The notes beneath the pieces are model-generated. The model was not told the DNA's origin, searched no databases, and saw nothing but the letters and a program-made list of their open reading frames with translations. This document shows, one piece after another, positions 7,829 to 29,617 of a stretch of DNA of 34,896 nt. The stretch comes from an uncultured Bryobacteraceae bacterium (GTDB lineage Bacteria > Acidobacteriota > Terriglobia > Bryobacterales > Bryobacteraceae), in assembly GCA_955652915.1 (NCBI GenBank), contig CATPCJ010000003.1, positions 1-34,896 of the forward strand. Reading direction: 5' to 3'. Position 1 is the first letter of the stretch. Each line of letters starts with the position of its first letter. The position numbers and the translations under genes were made by a program.

Positions 7829-8419
7829 CTATCGCGTCCAGTATATACAAATCGGAGCCGCGCGCGTAAGCAAGCGATTTCCCCGCCGGGCAGCCATTTC
7901 ACGTCCAGCGGCGATCCGCTCGGCATCAGGCAGCACCCTCTTTGCAGCCGGAAAAAGCTGGTTGTCTTCGAGATCGATGTGCCGCGCGTACATTTGGGTG
8001 AGGCCTTTCAGCAGCTCCGCTAATCGCGCGGCTTGCTCGCCACCCCATTGACCGCCCGTGAGCCATTGAACACCCAATCGGTCGACCTCCGCATGCATCG
8101 CTTCGGCAGTCCGATGATCCCTTTCCATCCCGGTGACCAAATCGAGAGCTTCGCGCAGATCCGCCGCGTCGATCCTGCGGAGCCGGGGAAACAGCGACTC
8201 CTCTTCATCGGCCGTATGCTTCGGCGCCGCATCGCGGAAGTATCGCAGCGCGTTTTCGAAAACACTTCGCCGAGGCCCGGTCAAGGCACCCGCCCCCGCC
8301 TGTTCGGAAACCCTCACTAACACACTCAGGAACCGCTCAATGCGCCGGTGACAATCGCTGAGCCAGCCAATCGGATCGTCGGGTCCACTCTCTGGTTTAG
8401 CGCCAATTTGTACTGGCAT
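7829..8419 (-). CDS. Hemerythrin HHE cation-binding domain protein
   Basis: A 196-residue cytoplasmic protein with a four-helix hemerythrin fold. Likely di-iron ligands are H28 or its neighbours in D-C-H-R-R-I-E, the histidine and glutamates of K-H-T-A-D-E-E-E-S-L-F-P (about 87-98), H in M-E-R-D-H-R-T, and the H-x-x-x-E/D set in Y-A-R-H-I-D-L-E-D-N-Q-L-F-P. Such proteins bind oxygen, nitric oxide or iron, or help repair iron-sulfur centres. The C-terminal 15-20 residues, after a run of arginines, do not look like part of the domain. They are read from sequence resembling an interspersed repeat also found near 29330-29350, so the tail may be repeat-derived. The start ATG at 8419 lies 18 bp after the flavoprotein stop and a perfect palindrome, AGGACGTCCT (8424-8433), separates them. 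Confidence 0.88.
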   Translation of the reverse strand: MPVQIGAKPESGPDDPIGWLSDCHRRIERFLSVLVRVSEQAGAGALTGPRRSVFENALRYFRDAAPKHTADEEESLFPRLRRIDAADLREALDLVTGMERDHRTAEAMHAEVDRLGVQWLTGGQWGGEQAARLAELLKGLTQMYARHIDLEDNQLFPAAKRVLPDAERIAAGREMAARRGNRLLTRAAPICIYWTR

Positions 8420-9618: not shown

Positions 9619-9723
9619 GTGGCGCGGACACCCGTGTCTACGGCCTCGAGACTCGTCTCGAGGCTCTTTCCCACGCCGAGCATCGAGATGAGTCTCGATG
9701 CGGCAGACTGAAGTCCGCGCCAC
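9619..9723. repeat. 105-bp palindromic element with three nested hairpins (REPIN/MITE-like)
   Basis: The element is bounded by a perfect 11-bp inverted repeat, GTGGCGCGGAC (9619-9629) and GTCCGCGCCAC (9713-9723). Inside are two perfect hairpins with 9-bp arms and 4-base loops. One is 9643-9651/9656-9664 (loop CTCG); the other is 9680-9688/9693-9701 (loop TGAG). The two arms share CGAGA/TCTCG, so they look like diverged copies of one unit. A weaker hairpin (GACAC..GTGTC) sits by the left end. It lies between the flavoprotein start and the response-regulator stop and could fold in DNA or in RNA. Confidence 0.85.
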
Positions 9724-17085: not shown

Positions 17086-17655
17086 ATGGACGAACCCGAA
17101 CTGATTCGGGCGGCGCAACGAGGCGACCAGCGCGCGTTCGAGCAACTGGTGCGCCTGTACGATCAGAACGTTCTTAGGCTGGCCTTGAACCTGCTTCGGT
17201 CGCCCGAAGACGCCAATGATATTTATCAGGAAGCGTTTCTGCGGGTGTACAAAAACCTGCACAGTTTCCGGTTCGATTGCAGCTTTCATACCTGGTTGTA
17301 TCGGATCGTGACCAATCTGTGCCTGGATGCGTTGCGTAAGCGGAGAGTGCGGCGCGAGGAAAATACGGTGGTGGAAACGAGCGAAGGATTTTTGGATCGC
17401 ATGGACACGGTGGAAGAAGCGCGGGCGGACGGCAATCCGCAGCGCCAATTGATGAGCCGTCAGTTGGGGAAGAAAATTAAGGAAGTGCTGACCGGGTTGA
17501 CCCCGCGTGAGCGCGCGGTGTTTGAAATGAGGCACTACCAGGGACTGCGTCTCCGGACCATCGGGGACATGCTGGGGACCTCCGAAGAGGCTGCGAAGAA
17601 TTGCCTTTTTCGGGCCACGCAAAAGATGCGCGCGGCTCTAGGAGATTTCGTATGA
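17086..17655 (+). CDS. ECF-type RNA polymerase sigma factor (RpoE-like)
   Basis: A 189-residue sigma factor with region 2 at about 5-85 (A-F-E-Q-L-V-R-L-Y and D-A-N-D-I-Y-Q-E-A-F-L-R-V-Y for core binding, then F-H-T-W-L-Y-R-I-V-T-N-L-C-L-D for -10 recognition). Region 4 is at about 130-185 (L-T-P-R-E-R-A-V-F-E-M-R and G-D-M-L-G-T-S-E-E-A-A-K). The frame is open to 16999, but the ATG at 17086 starts exactly at the conserved N-terminus, whereas the upstream stretch overlaps the likely promoter. The stop overlaps the next start by 4 bp (ATGA), and that next gene encodes a zinc-finger anti-sigma protein, so the pair should be translationally coupled. It likely controls an envelope-related regulon including its own operon. 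Confidence 0.93.
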   Translation: MDEPELIRAAQRGDQRAFEQLVRLYDQNVLRLALNLLRSPEDANDIYQEAFLRVYKNLHSFRFDCSFHTWLYRIVTNLCLDALRKRRVRREENTVVETSEGFLDRMDTVEEARADGNPQRQLMSRQLGKKIKEVLTGLTPRERAVFEMRHYQGLRLRTIGDMLGTSEEAAKNCLFRATQKMRAALGDFV

Positions 17656-18575
17656 AATGTGAAGAAGTGAAAAAAACGCTGCCGCTGTTTCTGTATGGCG
17701 AGCTTTCTTTCGACGAAGAGGAACGGCTGGAGGTGCATATCGACGAGTGCGCCTCGTGCCGCGGCGTGCTGGAGCGCGAGCGGGCGATGTTCAAAGCGTT
17801 GGATAGCGCCGAGGTCGCTCCCGCTCAGGATTTTTTGGACCAGTGCCGCGCGGAATTGCGGGGCCGGTTGGCGCGCGCGGCGCCGGAACGCAACAAGTTC
17901 TGGGACAAAATCCTGCGGGGATTCTCGATTCAGTTTCACTTCGCTCCGGGAATCATGCAGCCGCTGGGCGCCGTGGCTATGTTGGCGATCGGTTTTTTTG
18001 CGGCGCGTGTCGCTCCGACTTCGCTGCTGGGCTCGTGGCGCTCCGCGGGCGTTCTGGCCGAGCCGGCTACGTCGCGCGTTCGCTATGTTGAGCCTGCTGG
18101 TCCAGGGCGGGTTCAAATTGTCATCGATGAAACCCGCCAACGGACTTTGTCCGGCAATGTCGACGATCAATCGATCCAGCGGCTGCTACTGACGGCCGCC
18201 AAGGATCCATCCGACGCCGGGCTACGGGTGGAGTCCGTCGATCTGTTGAAGAGCAAGCCGCAGTCGGCCGAGGTGCGGAGCGCTTTGCTTTATGCGCTGC
18301 AGCACGATTCCAATGCGGGTGTCCGGCTGAAGGCGTTGGATGGTCTGAAAGATTTCGCGAACGATCCCCAAACGCGCCAGACCCTCGCGCAGGTTTTGTT
18401 GCGCGACGACAATCCGGGAGTTCGTACGCAGGTGATCGACTTGCTGATCCAGCATCGCTCTGATTCCATGGTTGGAGTTCTGCAGGAATTGATGGTGAAG
18501 GAAGATAACGGCTACATCCGCATGCGCTGCCAGCGGGCGTTACACGATATGAATGCATCGGTGGAGACGTACTAG
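17652..18575 (+). CDS. Zinc-finger anti-sigma factor fused to C-terminal HEAT repeats
   Basis: A 307-residue membrane anti-sigma factor. The N-terminal ZAS domain has H29-x3-C33-x2-C36 (H-I-D-E-C-A-S-C), the motif of zinc-binding anti-sigma domains. One membrane helix follows (about 101-120). The part beyond the membrane includes HEAT-type helical repeats from about 178 to 300 (D-A-G-L-R-V-E-S-V-D-L-L, N-A-G-V-R-L-K-A-L-D-G-L, N-P-G-V-R-T-Q-V-I-D-L-L). The sigma factor is expected to be held at the inner membrane until a signal reaches the HEAT region. Its start overlaps the sigma stop. A 26-bp stretch of its 3' end (18513-18538, encoding Y-I-R-M-R-C-Q-R-A) is repeated exactly at 18593-18618, just after the gene. 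Confidence 0.9.
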   Translation: MKCEEVKKTLPLFLYGELSFDEEERLEVHIDECASCRGVLERERAMFKALDSAEVAPAQDFLDQCRAELRGRLARAAPERNKFWDKILRGFSIQFHFAPGIMQPLGAVAMLAIGFFAARVAPTSLLGSWRSAGVLAEPATSRVRYVEPAGPGRVQIVIDETRQRTLSGNVDDQSIQRLLLTAAKDPSDAGLRVESVDLLKSKPQSAEVRSALLYALQHDSNAGVRLKALDGLKDFANDPQTRQTLAQVLLRDDNPGVRTQVIDLLIQHRSDSMVGVLQELMVKEDNGYIRMRCQRALHDMNASVETY

Positions 18576-18592
18576 CATGCGTGGGCGACGGA

Positions 18593-18618
18593 TACATCCG
18601 CATGCGCTGCCAGCGGGC
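18593..18618 (+). repeat. Second copy of a 26-bp direct repeat of the anti-sigma 3' end
   Basis: This stretch is identical to 18513-18538, exactly 80 bp earlier within the anti-sigma coding sequence. It lies in the untranslated spacer and directly precedes the left end of the 232-bp element. It may reflect a local duplication, or shared sequence captured with the element. Confidence 0.85.
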
Positions 18619-18623
18619 ATTTT

Positions 18624-18855
18624 TCAGAACCGCGACCGTAACGGAGCGCCCATGGGCCTGCGGCCCACCAAAAGTGACCAAGACGCGGCGGGCCCCTTCC
18701 GTGGAATCAATAATTTGCGCCGCGTCTTCAACGGAGCGCACCACATGTCTGGGGTGGGCAACACTCCCCTGGCGAGGGGCACCCGTAAAACCTCCGCTTG
18801 TCAGCGGACAAGGTCGGCCGGGGAGGACGTCTCTTGCCAACGGTCGCGGTTCTGA
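18624..18855. repeat. 232-bp MITE-like element with 16-bp perfect terminal inverted repeats
   Basis: TCAGAACCGCGACCGT (18624-18639) is the exact reverse complement of 18840-18855. The enclosed 232 bp has no plausible gene and contains smaller palindromes (for example GGGCC..GGCCC near 18657). Its right third, from about 18769, is clearly related to 29250-29335 inside fliO, so it belongs to an interspersed repeat family. It separates the anti-sigma gene from the DUF4097 gene and may affect co-transcription. Confidence 0.8.
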
Positions 18856-18886
18856 TGAGGAAGCAGTATTGGAGAAGCATTAGTTA

Positions 18887-20071
18887 ATGAAGCAGTTTTT
18901 TCCCATCTCGCTCATGTTCGCTCTCAGCGCTGGGCCCGCCGTGCGTGCGCAAAACGACTCCCCGATTACTCGGGAAGGCCGTTACTGGGTGCGCACCATC
19001 AATGGCGTCGCGAGTGGCATGCCAATGCAGCGCTTTCGGCTGGACACCATCGGCAATGTTGTGCTGCAGGGCGATAACAGCACCCGCGCAACCTACCAGC
19101 TGAAGGTGCGAGTGCAGGCCCGTAATGCGCGCGAAGCGGGATTGCTGCTTCGCCGGTTCGAGGTGAAAACACGAACTCAGGGCGACTGGATGCGCTTGAC
19201 CGTCATGCCACCGAAGAATATCGCGGAGGCGCCGGAGTTGTCGATATCCGTGCCGCGCGCCCTGCTGCGTATGTGGATCGAAACGCGCGCCGGAAATGTA
19301 CAAGCGTCGGACCTGGACGGTGAATTGGAAGCGCGCTCCGCCGGTGGACAGATAAATGTCGAGGGCATCAAGGGCCGTGCTCAACTGCGAACAGGTGGCG
19401 GCGACATCCAGGTGGGCACCGTCGGCGGCCCAATGAAATGCTATTCGGGCGGCGGTGTGATTCGCGTGCAGAGCGCCGGCGGCGAATCCTGGTTTGAGAC
19501 CGCGGGTGGCGAAATCCTGATCCATCAGGTGCTGGGCGCGGTGCATGCCGCGACGGCCGGCGGCAACATCAAAATTGAGCGTGCGTCCGGTACCGTGTTT
19601 GCCCGGACCGCCGCGGGATTAATCGACGTCCAGCAGGCCGGCGGGGCCGTTACGGCGGAGAGCTCCGGCGGCGCCATTCAGGTGAATGCGGCCAATGGCG
19701 TTCACTGCGATTCGTCGGGCGGTGCAATCCGCTTGCGGAATGTTGGAGGCGCCTTGCGTGCGTCCACTGCCATGGGCAGCATTCTGGCTGAGCTGCTCTC
19801 CGGCAACCGGATTTTAGATTCCACGTTGAGCACCAACTCAGGTGACATAACCGTATTCATTTCGTCAAACCTTCCGTTGACGGTTTTCGCCAGGAATGAA
19901 TCGGCCGGGTCGGTGGGTAGAATTATTTCCGATTTTCCGGAGATTCGTGCCAGGCAAGTCAGCCAAGCGGGGATGAGTCCGGTGGTGGCCGAAGGCGCTC
20001 TAAACGGGGGCGGCCCGGTGTTGCACATCAACGTGATCGGTGGCACAATTTATTTGCGCCGCCAGAAGTAA
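18887..20071 (+). CDS. DUF4097-family exported beta-repeat protein
   Basis: A 394-residue protein with a signal peptide (M-K-Q-F-F-P-I-S-L-M-F-A-L-S, cleavage near V-R-A-Q). From about 125 onward it is a regular series of short glycine-rich beta repeats of roughly 18-20 residues (G-N-V-Q-A-S-D-L-D-G, G-G-Q-I-N-V-E-G, G-G-D-I-Q-V-G-T-V-G-G and so on). This is the parallel beta-helix-like pattern of DUF4097, often called a putative adhesin. In Acidobacteria and related phyla such genes often follow ECF sigma/anti-sigma pairs, as here. It probably sits in the periplasm or on the outer membrane; its role is unknown. The ATG at 18887 has no strong Shine-Dalgarno sequence, and the repeat element just upstream may have replaced part of the leader. 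Confidence 0.85.
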   Translation: MKQFFPISLMFALSAGPAVRAQNDSPITREGRYWVRTINGVASGMPMQRFRLDTIGNVVLQGDNSTRATYQLKVRVQARNAREAGLLLRRFEVKTRTQGDWMRLTVMPPKNIAEAPELSISVPRALLRMWIETRAGNVQASDLDGELEARSAGGQINVEGIKGRAQLRTGGGDIQVGTVGGPMKCYSGGGVIRVQSAGGESWFETAGGEILIHQVLGAVHAATAGGNIKIERASGTVFARTAAGLIDVQQAGGAVTAESSGGAIQVNAANGVHCDSSGGAIRLRNVGGALRASTAMGSILAELLSGNRILDSTLSTNSGDITVFISSNLPLTVFARNESAGSVGRIISDFPEIRARQVSQAGMSPVVAEGALNGGGPVLHINVIGGTIYLRRQK

Positions 20072-28166: not shown

Positions 28167-28425
28167 ACCGGCCAAAATCACCGAGTAATAGCGTCGTGTA
28201 GGTAAGCAGGTTCGTGGTCATCCACGGCAGCATCAGCAGCAAACCGAACAGGAACGCGAGCAGCTTCGGAACGGCGCTGAAGCTGGTGTCCTGAATGGAA
28301 GTCAATACCTGCACCAGACTGACCGCGATTCCAACCACGAACCCGATCGCGAGAACCGGCATGGCCAACCAAAACACCTCGAGCAATGCATGACGGAAGA
28401 TTTGAACCGCGAGTTCGGGTGTCAT
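28156..28425 (-). CDS. fliQ: Flagellar export gate protein FliQ
   Basis: Exactly 89 residues, the family's usual size, with two membrane helices (about 16-38 and 54-76) and the typical V-L-T-S-I-Q-D-T-S-F segment between them. It begins at the ATG 28423-28425, which overlaps the fliP stop (ATGA). A much longer open frame exists on this strand, but only this C-terminal part is real. It is an export-gate core subunit. Confidence 0.95.
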   Translation of the reverse strand: MTPELAVQIFRHALLEVFWLAMPVLAIGFVVGIAVSLVQVLTSIQDTSFSAVPKLLAFLFGLLLMLPWMTTNLLTYTTLLLGDFGRYAH

Positions 28426-29168
28426 GTTGGATAGAAGCTCCTGAGAAGCGATCCAACCACCAGATTCCAGCCATCCACCAGCACAAAGAGCAGAATCTTG
28501 AATGGTGCCGATAACATGACGGGCGGCAGTTGCACCATCCCGATGGAGAGCGTCACGGAAGCGACCACCAGATCGATCACCAGAAACGGAAGAAACAGCA
28601 CGGCGCCAATCTGAAAACCGGTTTTCAATTCCGAGAGCACGTAGGAGGGCACCAGCACCATGAGACCGAGGTCGGATGGACGCGCGGGTGCGGCAGTATG
28701 TGAGACGTCCAGGAAAAGTTTCACATCCTTCTCGCGAACGTACTTCACCAGGAAAGCTTTCAAGGGCTGCGAGCCGTCTTCGAAGCCTTTTTGCCAAATC
28801 ACCTGCCCGCTCTCGACCGGTTCCCAACCCTTGTGGTAAATTTCGGTCACCACCGGCTGCATAATGAGGAACGTCAAGAACATCGACAGGCCGATGAGTA
28901 CCTGATTGGATGGGGTGCCCTGTGTGCCCAACGCTTGACGCAGAAAGTGCAGCACCACCGTGATCCGCAGAAAAGGAGTAACGGACATGATGATGGCCGG
29001 TAGGACGCTCAGCACGGTGAGCATCACCACGATTTGCATGGGCACACTCAACGTCGCCGACCCCTTGGTTTGCACCAGCGAGATGCCGGAAAGCGGACCC
29101 TGTCCCTGCGCCAGCAAGATGCCGGGTCCGGCTAATGCGAGGATGGCGCGGAGCAACGATGACTTCAT
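28422..29168 (-). CDS. fliP: Flagellar export gate protein FliP
   Basis: A 248-residue protein with a cleavable signal peptide (residues 1-20, L-L-A-Q), typical for FliP. Helix-rich conserved blocks follow: M-L-T-V-L-S-V-L-P-A-I-I-M-S-V-T-P-F, R-I-T-V-V-L-H-F-L-R-Q-A-L-G-T-Q and P-S-N-Q-V-L-I-G-L-S-M-F-L-T, then D-L-V-V-A-S-V-T-L-S-I-G-M near the end. It is the central FliP ring of the export gate. Its start overlaps the fliO stop by 4 bp. Confidence 0.96.
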   Translation of the reverse strand: MKSSLLRAILALAGPGILLAQGQGPLSGISLVQTKGSATLSVPMQIVVMLTVLSVLPAIIMSVTPFLRITVVLHFLRQALGTQGTPSNQVLIGLSMFLTFLIMQPVVTEIYHKGWEPVESGQVIWQKGFEDGSQPLKAFLVKYVREKDVKLFLDVSHTAAPARPSDLGLMVLVPSYVLSELKTGFQIGAVLFLPFLVIDLVVASVTLSIGMVQLPPVMLSAPFKILLFVLVDGWNLVVGSLLRSFYPT

Positions 29169-29617
29169 ACGATTCCAGGACCAACTGCGTCTGTCGGATA
29201 GGATGGTCGGCCAAAGTTTTGTCCCGCACTAGGCTTGACAACCGCGTGCTTGGCGAGGGGCTGCCGTGAAGCCTTAGTTTGTCCGAGGACAAGGCCGCCC
29301 GGAGAGGAAGCCTCTTGCCGATGAATCGACGCTTCCGAACCACGCGCGTTAGCAAGCGGTATGCGCGACGGTCCACGAAGCAGAGTGACACCAGCGGGAT
29401 GCACCGCCACCACCATATCCTGCTCGCCGAATCTAACGACGTGAATGGAATGCTGCGGGCCGAGAGCAAGCTTCCCGCGCGACTCCAGGACACCGTGCGC
29501 CGCGTGAGCCCTCGGGAAACCGATGCGGACGTTCCCCCGCTTCCGAAGAAACCACAGCGCGGCCCATAGGAGCGCGAAAACGAACGTGATGGCGAGCGAT
29601 TGTTTTACGATGTCCAT
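29165..29617 (-). CDS. fliO: Flagellar protein FliO with a repeat-derived tail
   Basis: A 150-residue protein. One membrane helix (about 8-24) is followed by a small FliO domain (R-G-K-L-A-L-G-P-Q-H-S-I-H-V-V-R-F-G-E-Q-D-M-V-V-A-V, about 45-75). FliO assists FliP assembly. From about residue 85 (P-L-A-N-A-R-G-S-E and onward) the coding sequence runs through an interspersed repeat related to 18769-18855. The last third is therefore probably not native FliO sequence. The frame stays open to overlap fliP by ATGA, so the insertion or read-through preserved coupling. Whether the extra tail is tolerated or functional is unknown. Confidence 0.85.
   Translation of the reverse strand: MDIVKQSLAITFVFALLWAALWFLRKRGNVRIGFPRAHAAHGVLESRGKLALGPQHSIHVVRFGEQDMVVAVHPAGVTLLRGPSRIPLANARGSEASIHRQEASSPGGLVLGQTKASRQPLAKHAVVKPSAGQNFGRPSYPTDAVGPGIV

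Follow-up and report, generated by a model that had tools for sequence, protein, structure and literature searches.

A species-restricted palindromic repeat in the C-terminal extension of FliO from an uncultured Bryobacteraceae bacterium

Mobile repeats that add peptide segments to proteins were reported for Rickettsia (Ogata 2000, cited in PMC2229807). The RPE sequences of Rickettsia, as described in PMC2229807, are palindromic, 105-146 bp long and dispersed, lying between genes and also fused in frame in conserved genes (19 reading frames); the RPE-carrying gmk product, when tested, was still active (PMC2229807). The enterobacterial repeats RU-1, RU-2 and RU-3, presented in 2007 as small and MITE-like, have open frames and occur in genes, to which they are fused in frame; it was proposed that new proteins could arise from them (PMC2759123). 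REPs have also been described inside genes, some of them at gene ends, with clusters that encode 43-82 residues (PMC3733652), and genes for REP-associated tyrosine transposases are reported to lie between inverted REPs (PMC2817692). Candidatus Solibacter is reported to have many short repeats (PMC3174227); among the open-licence papers listed for REPs in Acidobacteria or Solibacter, no title or abstract opening described the family reported below in Bryobacterales.

The locus studied here lies in a stretch of 34,896 nucleotides (the window, contig CATPCJ010000003.1) from the draft genome of an uncultured Bryobacteraceae bacterium, which comprises 7.09 Mb in 506 contigs and was searched in full. 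The features of the window that bear on the fliO gene and its repeats are as follows.

28422-29168, minus strand: fliP, whose start overlaps the fliO stop by 4 nt (29165-29168)
29165-29617, minus strand: fliO, 150 codons, residues 1-80 being the conserved core (transmembrane helix plus small beta domain)
29168-29239, minus strand: last 24 fliO codons (residues 127-150), single-copy DNA with no second match in the genome
29240-29337, plus strand (fliO reads the opposite strand): copy of the palindromic element, 83.1 bits and E 1.2e-19 with covariance model R1
29336-29358, plus strand: REPb unit abutting the element copy in fliO, 2 of 23 positions mismatched to the working consensus; encodes LANARGSE of FliO
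18759-18854, plus strand: second copy of the element, 105.9 bits with R1, intergenic between coding frames 17526-18572 and 18884-20068
18627-18648, plus strand: REPa unit, 1 mismatch

FliO was identified by its PF04347 core (residues 22-81, E 3.8e-8, 33.7 bits against a cut-off of 22) and by the adjacent fliP. A structure model, based on the window's own FliO aligned with 39 of 89 distinct relatives, has a helix at residues 3-26 and strands within 44-81; beyond these the tail has no modelled secondary structure (pLDDT 53-65) and is predicted to be unstructured. Residues 81-85 read RGPSR, and the REPb unit and the element together encode residues 86-126. The initial annotation had assigned the C-terminal third of FliO, from the peptide PLANARGSE onward, to a repeat, and for residues 86-126 the mapping bears this out. 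The mapping also places PLANARGSE in the short REP unit at 29336-29358, outside the repeat that had been aligned, and leaves about 24 residues at the end (127-150) that are not repeat, so the extension is largely rather than wholly repeat-derived. The reading frame and the overlap with fliP are kept, as had been proposed. The stretch just ahead of fliP was considered as a further repeat and rejected, the genome search returning only the stretch itself; it would be either the old, fast-evolving FliO end or a former spacer.

No direct repeat pair in the window is longer than that of 29251-29319 with 18770-18838 (80% identity over 69 nt, ungapped), in agreement with the originally reported match between the strand opposite fliO and a second site. 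A BLAST search of the genome with 29240-29345 returned 41 matches at E ≤ 1, namely the query itself, 39 others with E no higher than 8.5e-9 and a single short match (19 nt, E 0.35); the repeat unit proved to span 29240-29337 and not 29250-29335. With the covariance model R1, built from an alignment of 33 element copies, there were 90 matches at E ≤ 0.001 in this genome (135 first-look candidates scored per genome), at least two of which are opposite-strand readings of another match, and the copy number is taken as about 90. The same model and threshold, again with 135 first-look candidates per genome, gave no match in 30 related genomes, four congeners included; the element is thus restricted to this genome among the 31 examined.

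The consensus element is about 96 nt long and palindromic overall, with ends AACCGC...GCGGTT and inner arms TTGGCGAGGGGC...GCCTCTTGCCAA, and its two strands fold at -44.3 and -40.3 kcal/mol. A known RNA family was rejected as the identity of the repeat, there being no Rfam family at gathering score in the window. In sequence, the element looks like a REPa unit (GAACCGCGACCGTAAGGGAGCG) carrying a palindromic insert at its centre. The second short unit, REPb (GGAACCGCGCGCGTTAGCAAGCG), has CGTC beside it in some copies, as seen by eye. Among 71 element copies, REPb (≤5 mismatches in 23) lies to the right in + orientation in 13, to the right in - orientation in 1 and to the left in 3, in addition to the fliO copy, which it abuts; most copies show no REP partner. 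A pooled 22-nt pattern for the short units, at ≤1 mismatch, matched 201 times in this genome and once in the reversed control, and with palindromic ends read from the sequence these units fit the description of REPs as short palindromic repeats present in more than about 100 copies. At the same threshold the pooled pattern occurred 16-123 times in the four congeners and 41 times in a genome from another family of the order, with no match in one further genome. The short REPs are therefore spread more widely than the long element, for which R1 gave 0 matches in the 30 other genomes.

Other repeats were also seen in the window. On the plus strand, 7854-7876 is a REPb-like unit with 2 mismatches, just upstream of a minus-strand coding frame. 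A large palindrome at 9636-9708, between two minus-strand genes, has arms of 31 nt that are 84% complementary and 11 nt apart. A 34-nt direct repeat occupies 18508-18541 and 18588-18621 (94% identical, 80 nt apart), its first copy lying at the 3' end of a coding frame.

In order to compare the tail with that of related proteins, fliO was sought in 110 loci (30 plus 80) and found in 106, this genome included; none was found in L203, L206, L207 or L239. The 105 FliO sequences from relatives reduced to 89 after identical proteins were merged. These 89 distinct proteins end 5-54 residues past the core (median 16, quartiles 14 and 20.5), and in the three congeners nearest to this genome the end comes 11, 13 and 15 residues past it; the present protein continues for 70. 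The expectation that FliO in relatives would end near residue 85 is therefore borne out, their ends coming soon after residue 80. In one locus, L189 (upstream of fliP), the 54-residue tail is built from ADLGN and PMPQ units repeated in tandem, another route to a longer FliO. A tblastn search for FliO-like proteins on plasmids gave no match. The tail could in principle be an old native FliO end that resembles the repeat by chance or through composition bias, since even away from genes the element often has several open frames. Set against this are the E value of 1.2e-19 for the fliO copy with R1 and the finding that the repeat peptide motifs tested occur in 0 of the 89 distinct relatives, distant FliO proteins with the same tail being what the initial annotation had said would speak against a repeat origin. 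A native ending was rejected on the second of these grounds, and we regard it as exceedingly improbable.

The length of FliO before the insertion was approached by joining the flanks. An insert length divisible by three (range tested, 114-123 nt) would give an ancestral protein of 109-112 residues whose stop overlapped fliP as it does now; with a remainder of two, it would have had 88-91 residues and a stop about 60 nt before fliP; with a remainder of one, the frame runs past the fliP start. The first of these is preferred because it keeps the fliP overlap, which was also seen by eye in two congeners, so that an ancestor of 109-112 residues appears the better choice, though not a settled one. 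FliO proteins range from 80 to more than 500 residues across phyla, according to PMC12403147, and the C-terminal 30 residues of Salmonella FliO are described as dispensable (PMC2947984).

The initial annotation had asked how often the repeat occurs in the genome and how often it is in frame within genes. Besides the count of about 90, a coding census was made of 74 of the 90 R1 matches, the 16 weakest being left out, in which codon usage (trained on the long frames of the window) was scored on both sides in each open frame. Eight of the 74 copies had a coding signal on both sides in one frame, placing them in frame inside genes; most copies had no such frame. By Pfam, seven of the eight lie in TrpE/GATase, a heparinase, two glycosyltransferases, a glycosyltransferase-methyltransferase, PurM and an MG2/Big_1 protein, the last with a Pfam match below the curated cut-offs. 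The eighth host, L096, had no Pfam match at E ≤ 0.001; it is a 717-residue protein (L096:534-2684), and in congeners several related copies lie side by side.

Four of these inserts are absent from orthologues, which is the pattern that defines RPE-like insertion. PurM has 68 and TrpE 61 extra residues relative to 4 of 4 congeners; the heparinase has about 29 relative to three aligned congeners, a fourth congener also matching both sides of the gap; and the L096 protein has about 44 relative to three aligned homologues. The identity of the repeat, its copy number, its restriction to this genome among 31 and its in-frame position in these four genes, where congeners have no insert, are direct observations. 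The other four internal cases are identified by coding signal and Pfam. PurM chains in the PDB match on both sides of the PurM insert, which falls within a stretch of about 12 residues of 5vk4; a structure model of PurM was set aside as poor (mean pLDDT 46.8, 5 sequences). For two glycosyltransferases, PDB matches were found on one side of the element only, or not at all around it. Besides FliO, three copies lie near the C-terminal end of a protein with an upstream Pfam domain: DUF2103, a glycosyltransferase and DUF72 (L121). Weak C-terminal candidates with no Pfam match (L117, L122, L128 and L139) were not counted as confirmed and were kept among the 59 other copies used for comparison below.

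A draft of 506 contigs with about 90 copies of a repeat invites the suspicion that reads from another copy were joined into fliO during assembly. The fliO core and fliP are in operon order with the insert between them, however, and the insert ends in single-copy DNA that is in frame with fliO; moreover, four other genes have the repeat in frame between the two halves of a single orthologue. We therefore consider an assembly artefact very unlikely.

The initial annotation had suggested that a mobile repeat that stays open when inserted could be a source of protein tails. Occurrence in frame in other genes agrees with this, but openness is not a special property of the element: over the 70 copies with a length of 90 nt or more, the six frames had a mean open fraction of 0.448, whereas dinucleotide shuffles gave 0.499 (sd 0.016). 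Selection of the element for openness was accordingly rejected, and since it is no more open than shuffled sequence, the in-frame copies reflect what selection tolerates.

The choice of frames is less simple. Between them, the eight internal copies use just two of the six frames (one for each orientation), and the fliO copy is read in one of these. Use of two or fewer frames has P about 0.018, allowing for post hoc choice and taking the open frames of each copy as equally likely, and the same pair named in advance would have P 0.0026. A purely neutral picture does not predict this, but the numbers are small and the result is suggestive only. In addition, one frame that usually contains a stop is free of it in 5 of the 8 internal copies, compared with 8 of the other 59 (Fisher P 0.005). 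Both observations would fit a history in which the FliO tail and the other inserts were kept by selection for a peptide role, such as a linker, an interaction or regulation of fliP. The stop-free bias is, however, expected from the survival of open insertions; the hosts are unrelated proteins with the element at unrelated sites; the FliO tail is predicted to be disordered; and the C-terminal copy in L121 uses a third frame. On balance we find such a selected role quite unlikely. A broader proposal, that the element is a protein-coding mobile module whose one or two frames give peptides that are tolerated or used, and which has recently placed a tag-like segment in PurM, TrpE, FliO and several glycosyltransferases, also seems unlikely.

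The genome contains six matches to Y1 transposases, one of which, on contig 149, scores 22.4 bits against a Pfam cut-off of 23. This gene has the following position.

L081:1357-1886: HUH transposase-like gene, a candidate REP-transposase unit flanked by inverted REPa at 1357 (plus strand) and 1865 (minus strand), about 500 nt apart

Its open frame encodes THVHVVV and a later tyrosine, which we take to be the HUH and catalytic tyrosine motifs. It scores 23.8 bits (E 4.1e-5) against a cut-off of 55 with the NCBIfam IS200 model, and 18.2 bits (E 0.0018) against a cut-off of 80 with that for the REP-associated transposase. Because these scores, like the Pfam score, fall under the cut-offs, the gene is a candidate mover only, and mobilisation of the element by an HUH transposase of the REP-associated type may be supposed.

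Together, these results make it highly probable that a non-autonomous mobile element of the REP/REPIN type inserted in the variable C-terminal end of fliO and was tolerated there, most likely as a neutral change. The mobile element would have consisted of the long palindrome and the adjoining short REP, about 120 nt in all. It would have entered the variable C-terminal end of the gene with the open frame kept and with neither the conserved core of FliO nor the start of fliP affected, and these circumstances would explain why the insertion was tolerated. The outcome would be a longer, unstructured cytoplasmic tail on FliO, presumably translated and most likely neutral, and the same element family would lie in frame in at least eight other genes. 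Besides the use of only two frames and the transposase scores below the cut-offs, it counts against this explanation that, as RNA, the insert folds only mildly better than shuffles (z -1.94) and that target-site duplications are unreadable because the congeners are too diverged at the insertion sites.

The in-frame insertions form a natural set in housekeeping enzymes of a large-genome Bryobacterales lineage, for which the congeners serve as insert-free controls, and the setting lies outside the obligate intracellular bacteria in which the idea began. They make it testable what load of foreign peptide PurM, TrpE and FliO bear, and whether repeats feed protein evolution. In the annotation of these genomes, segments like LANARGSE are to be expected as repeat-derived.

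The described systems resemble this one to different degrees. The intragenic GTAG/CGTC REPs differ from the element described here, which is about 96 nt long with an inner palindrome and for which a candidate tag, CGTC, was seen only by eye beside REPb in some copies. RU-1, RU-2 and RU-3, compared by description, are likewise small repeats with open frames inside genes, but they belong to another host group and measure 103-168 bp. The likeness to REPIN/RAYT systems would lie in short REPs in inverted pairs and in the one HUH gene flanked by inverted REPs; the candidate transposase scores below the family cut-offs. To RPE, compared by description, the likeness is in being palindromic and dispersed, both between genes and in frame within them; the differences are that this host belongs to another phylum, that short REP units underlie the element and that the genome has a REP-flanked HUH gene. 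The FliO extension is real and largely repeat-derived, the work of a species-restricted family by a kind of in-frame insertion already known elsewhere.
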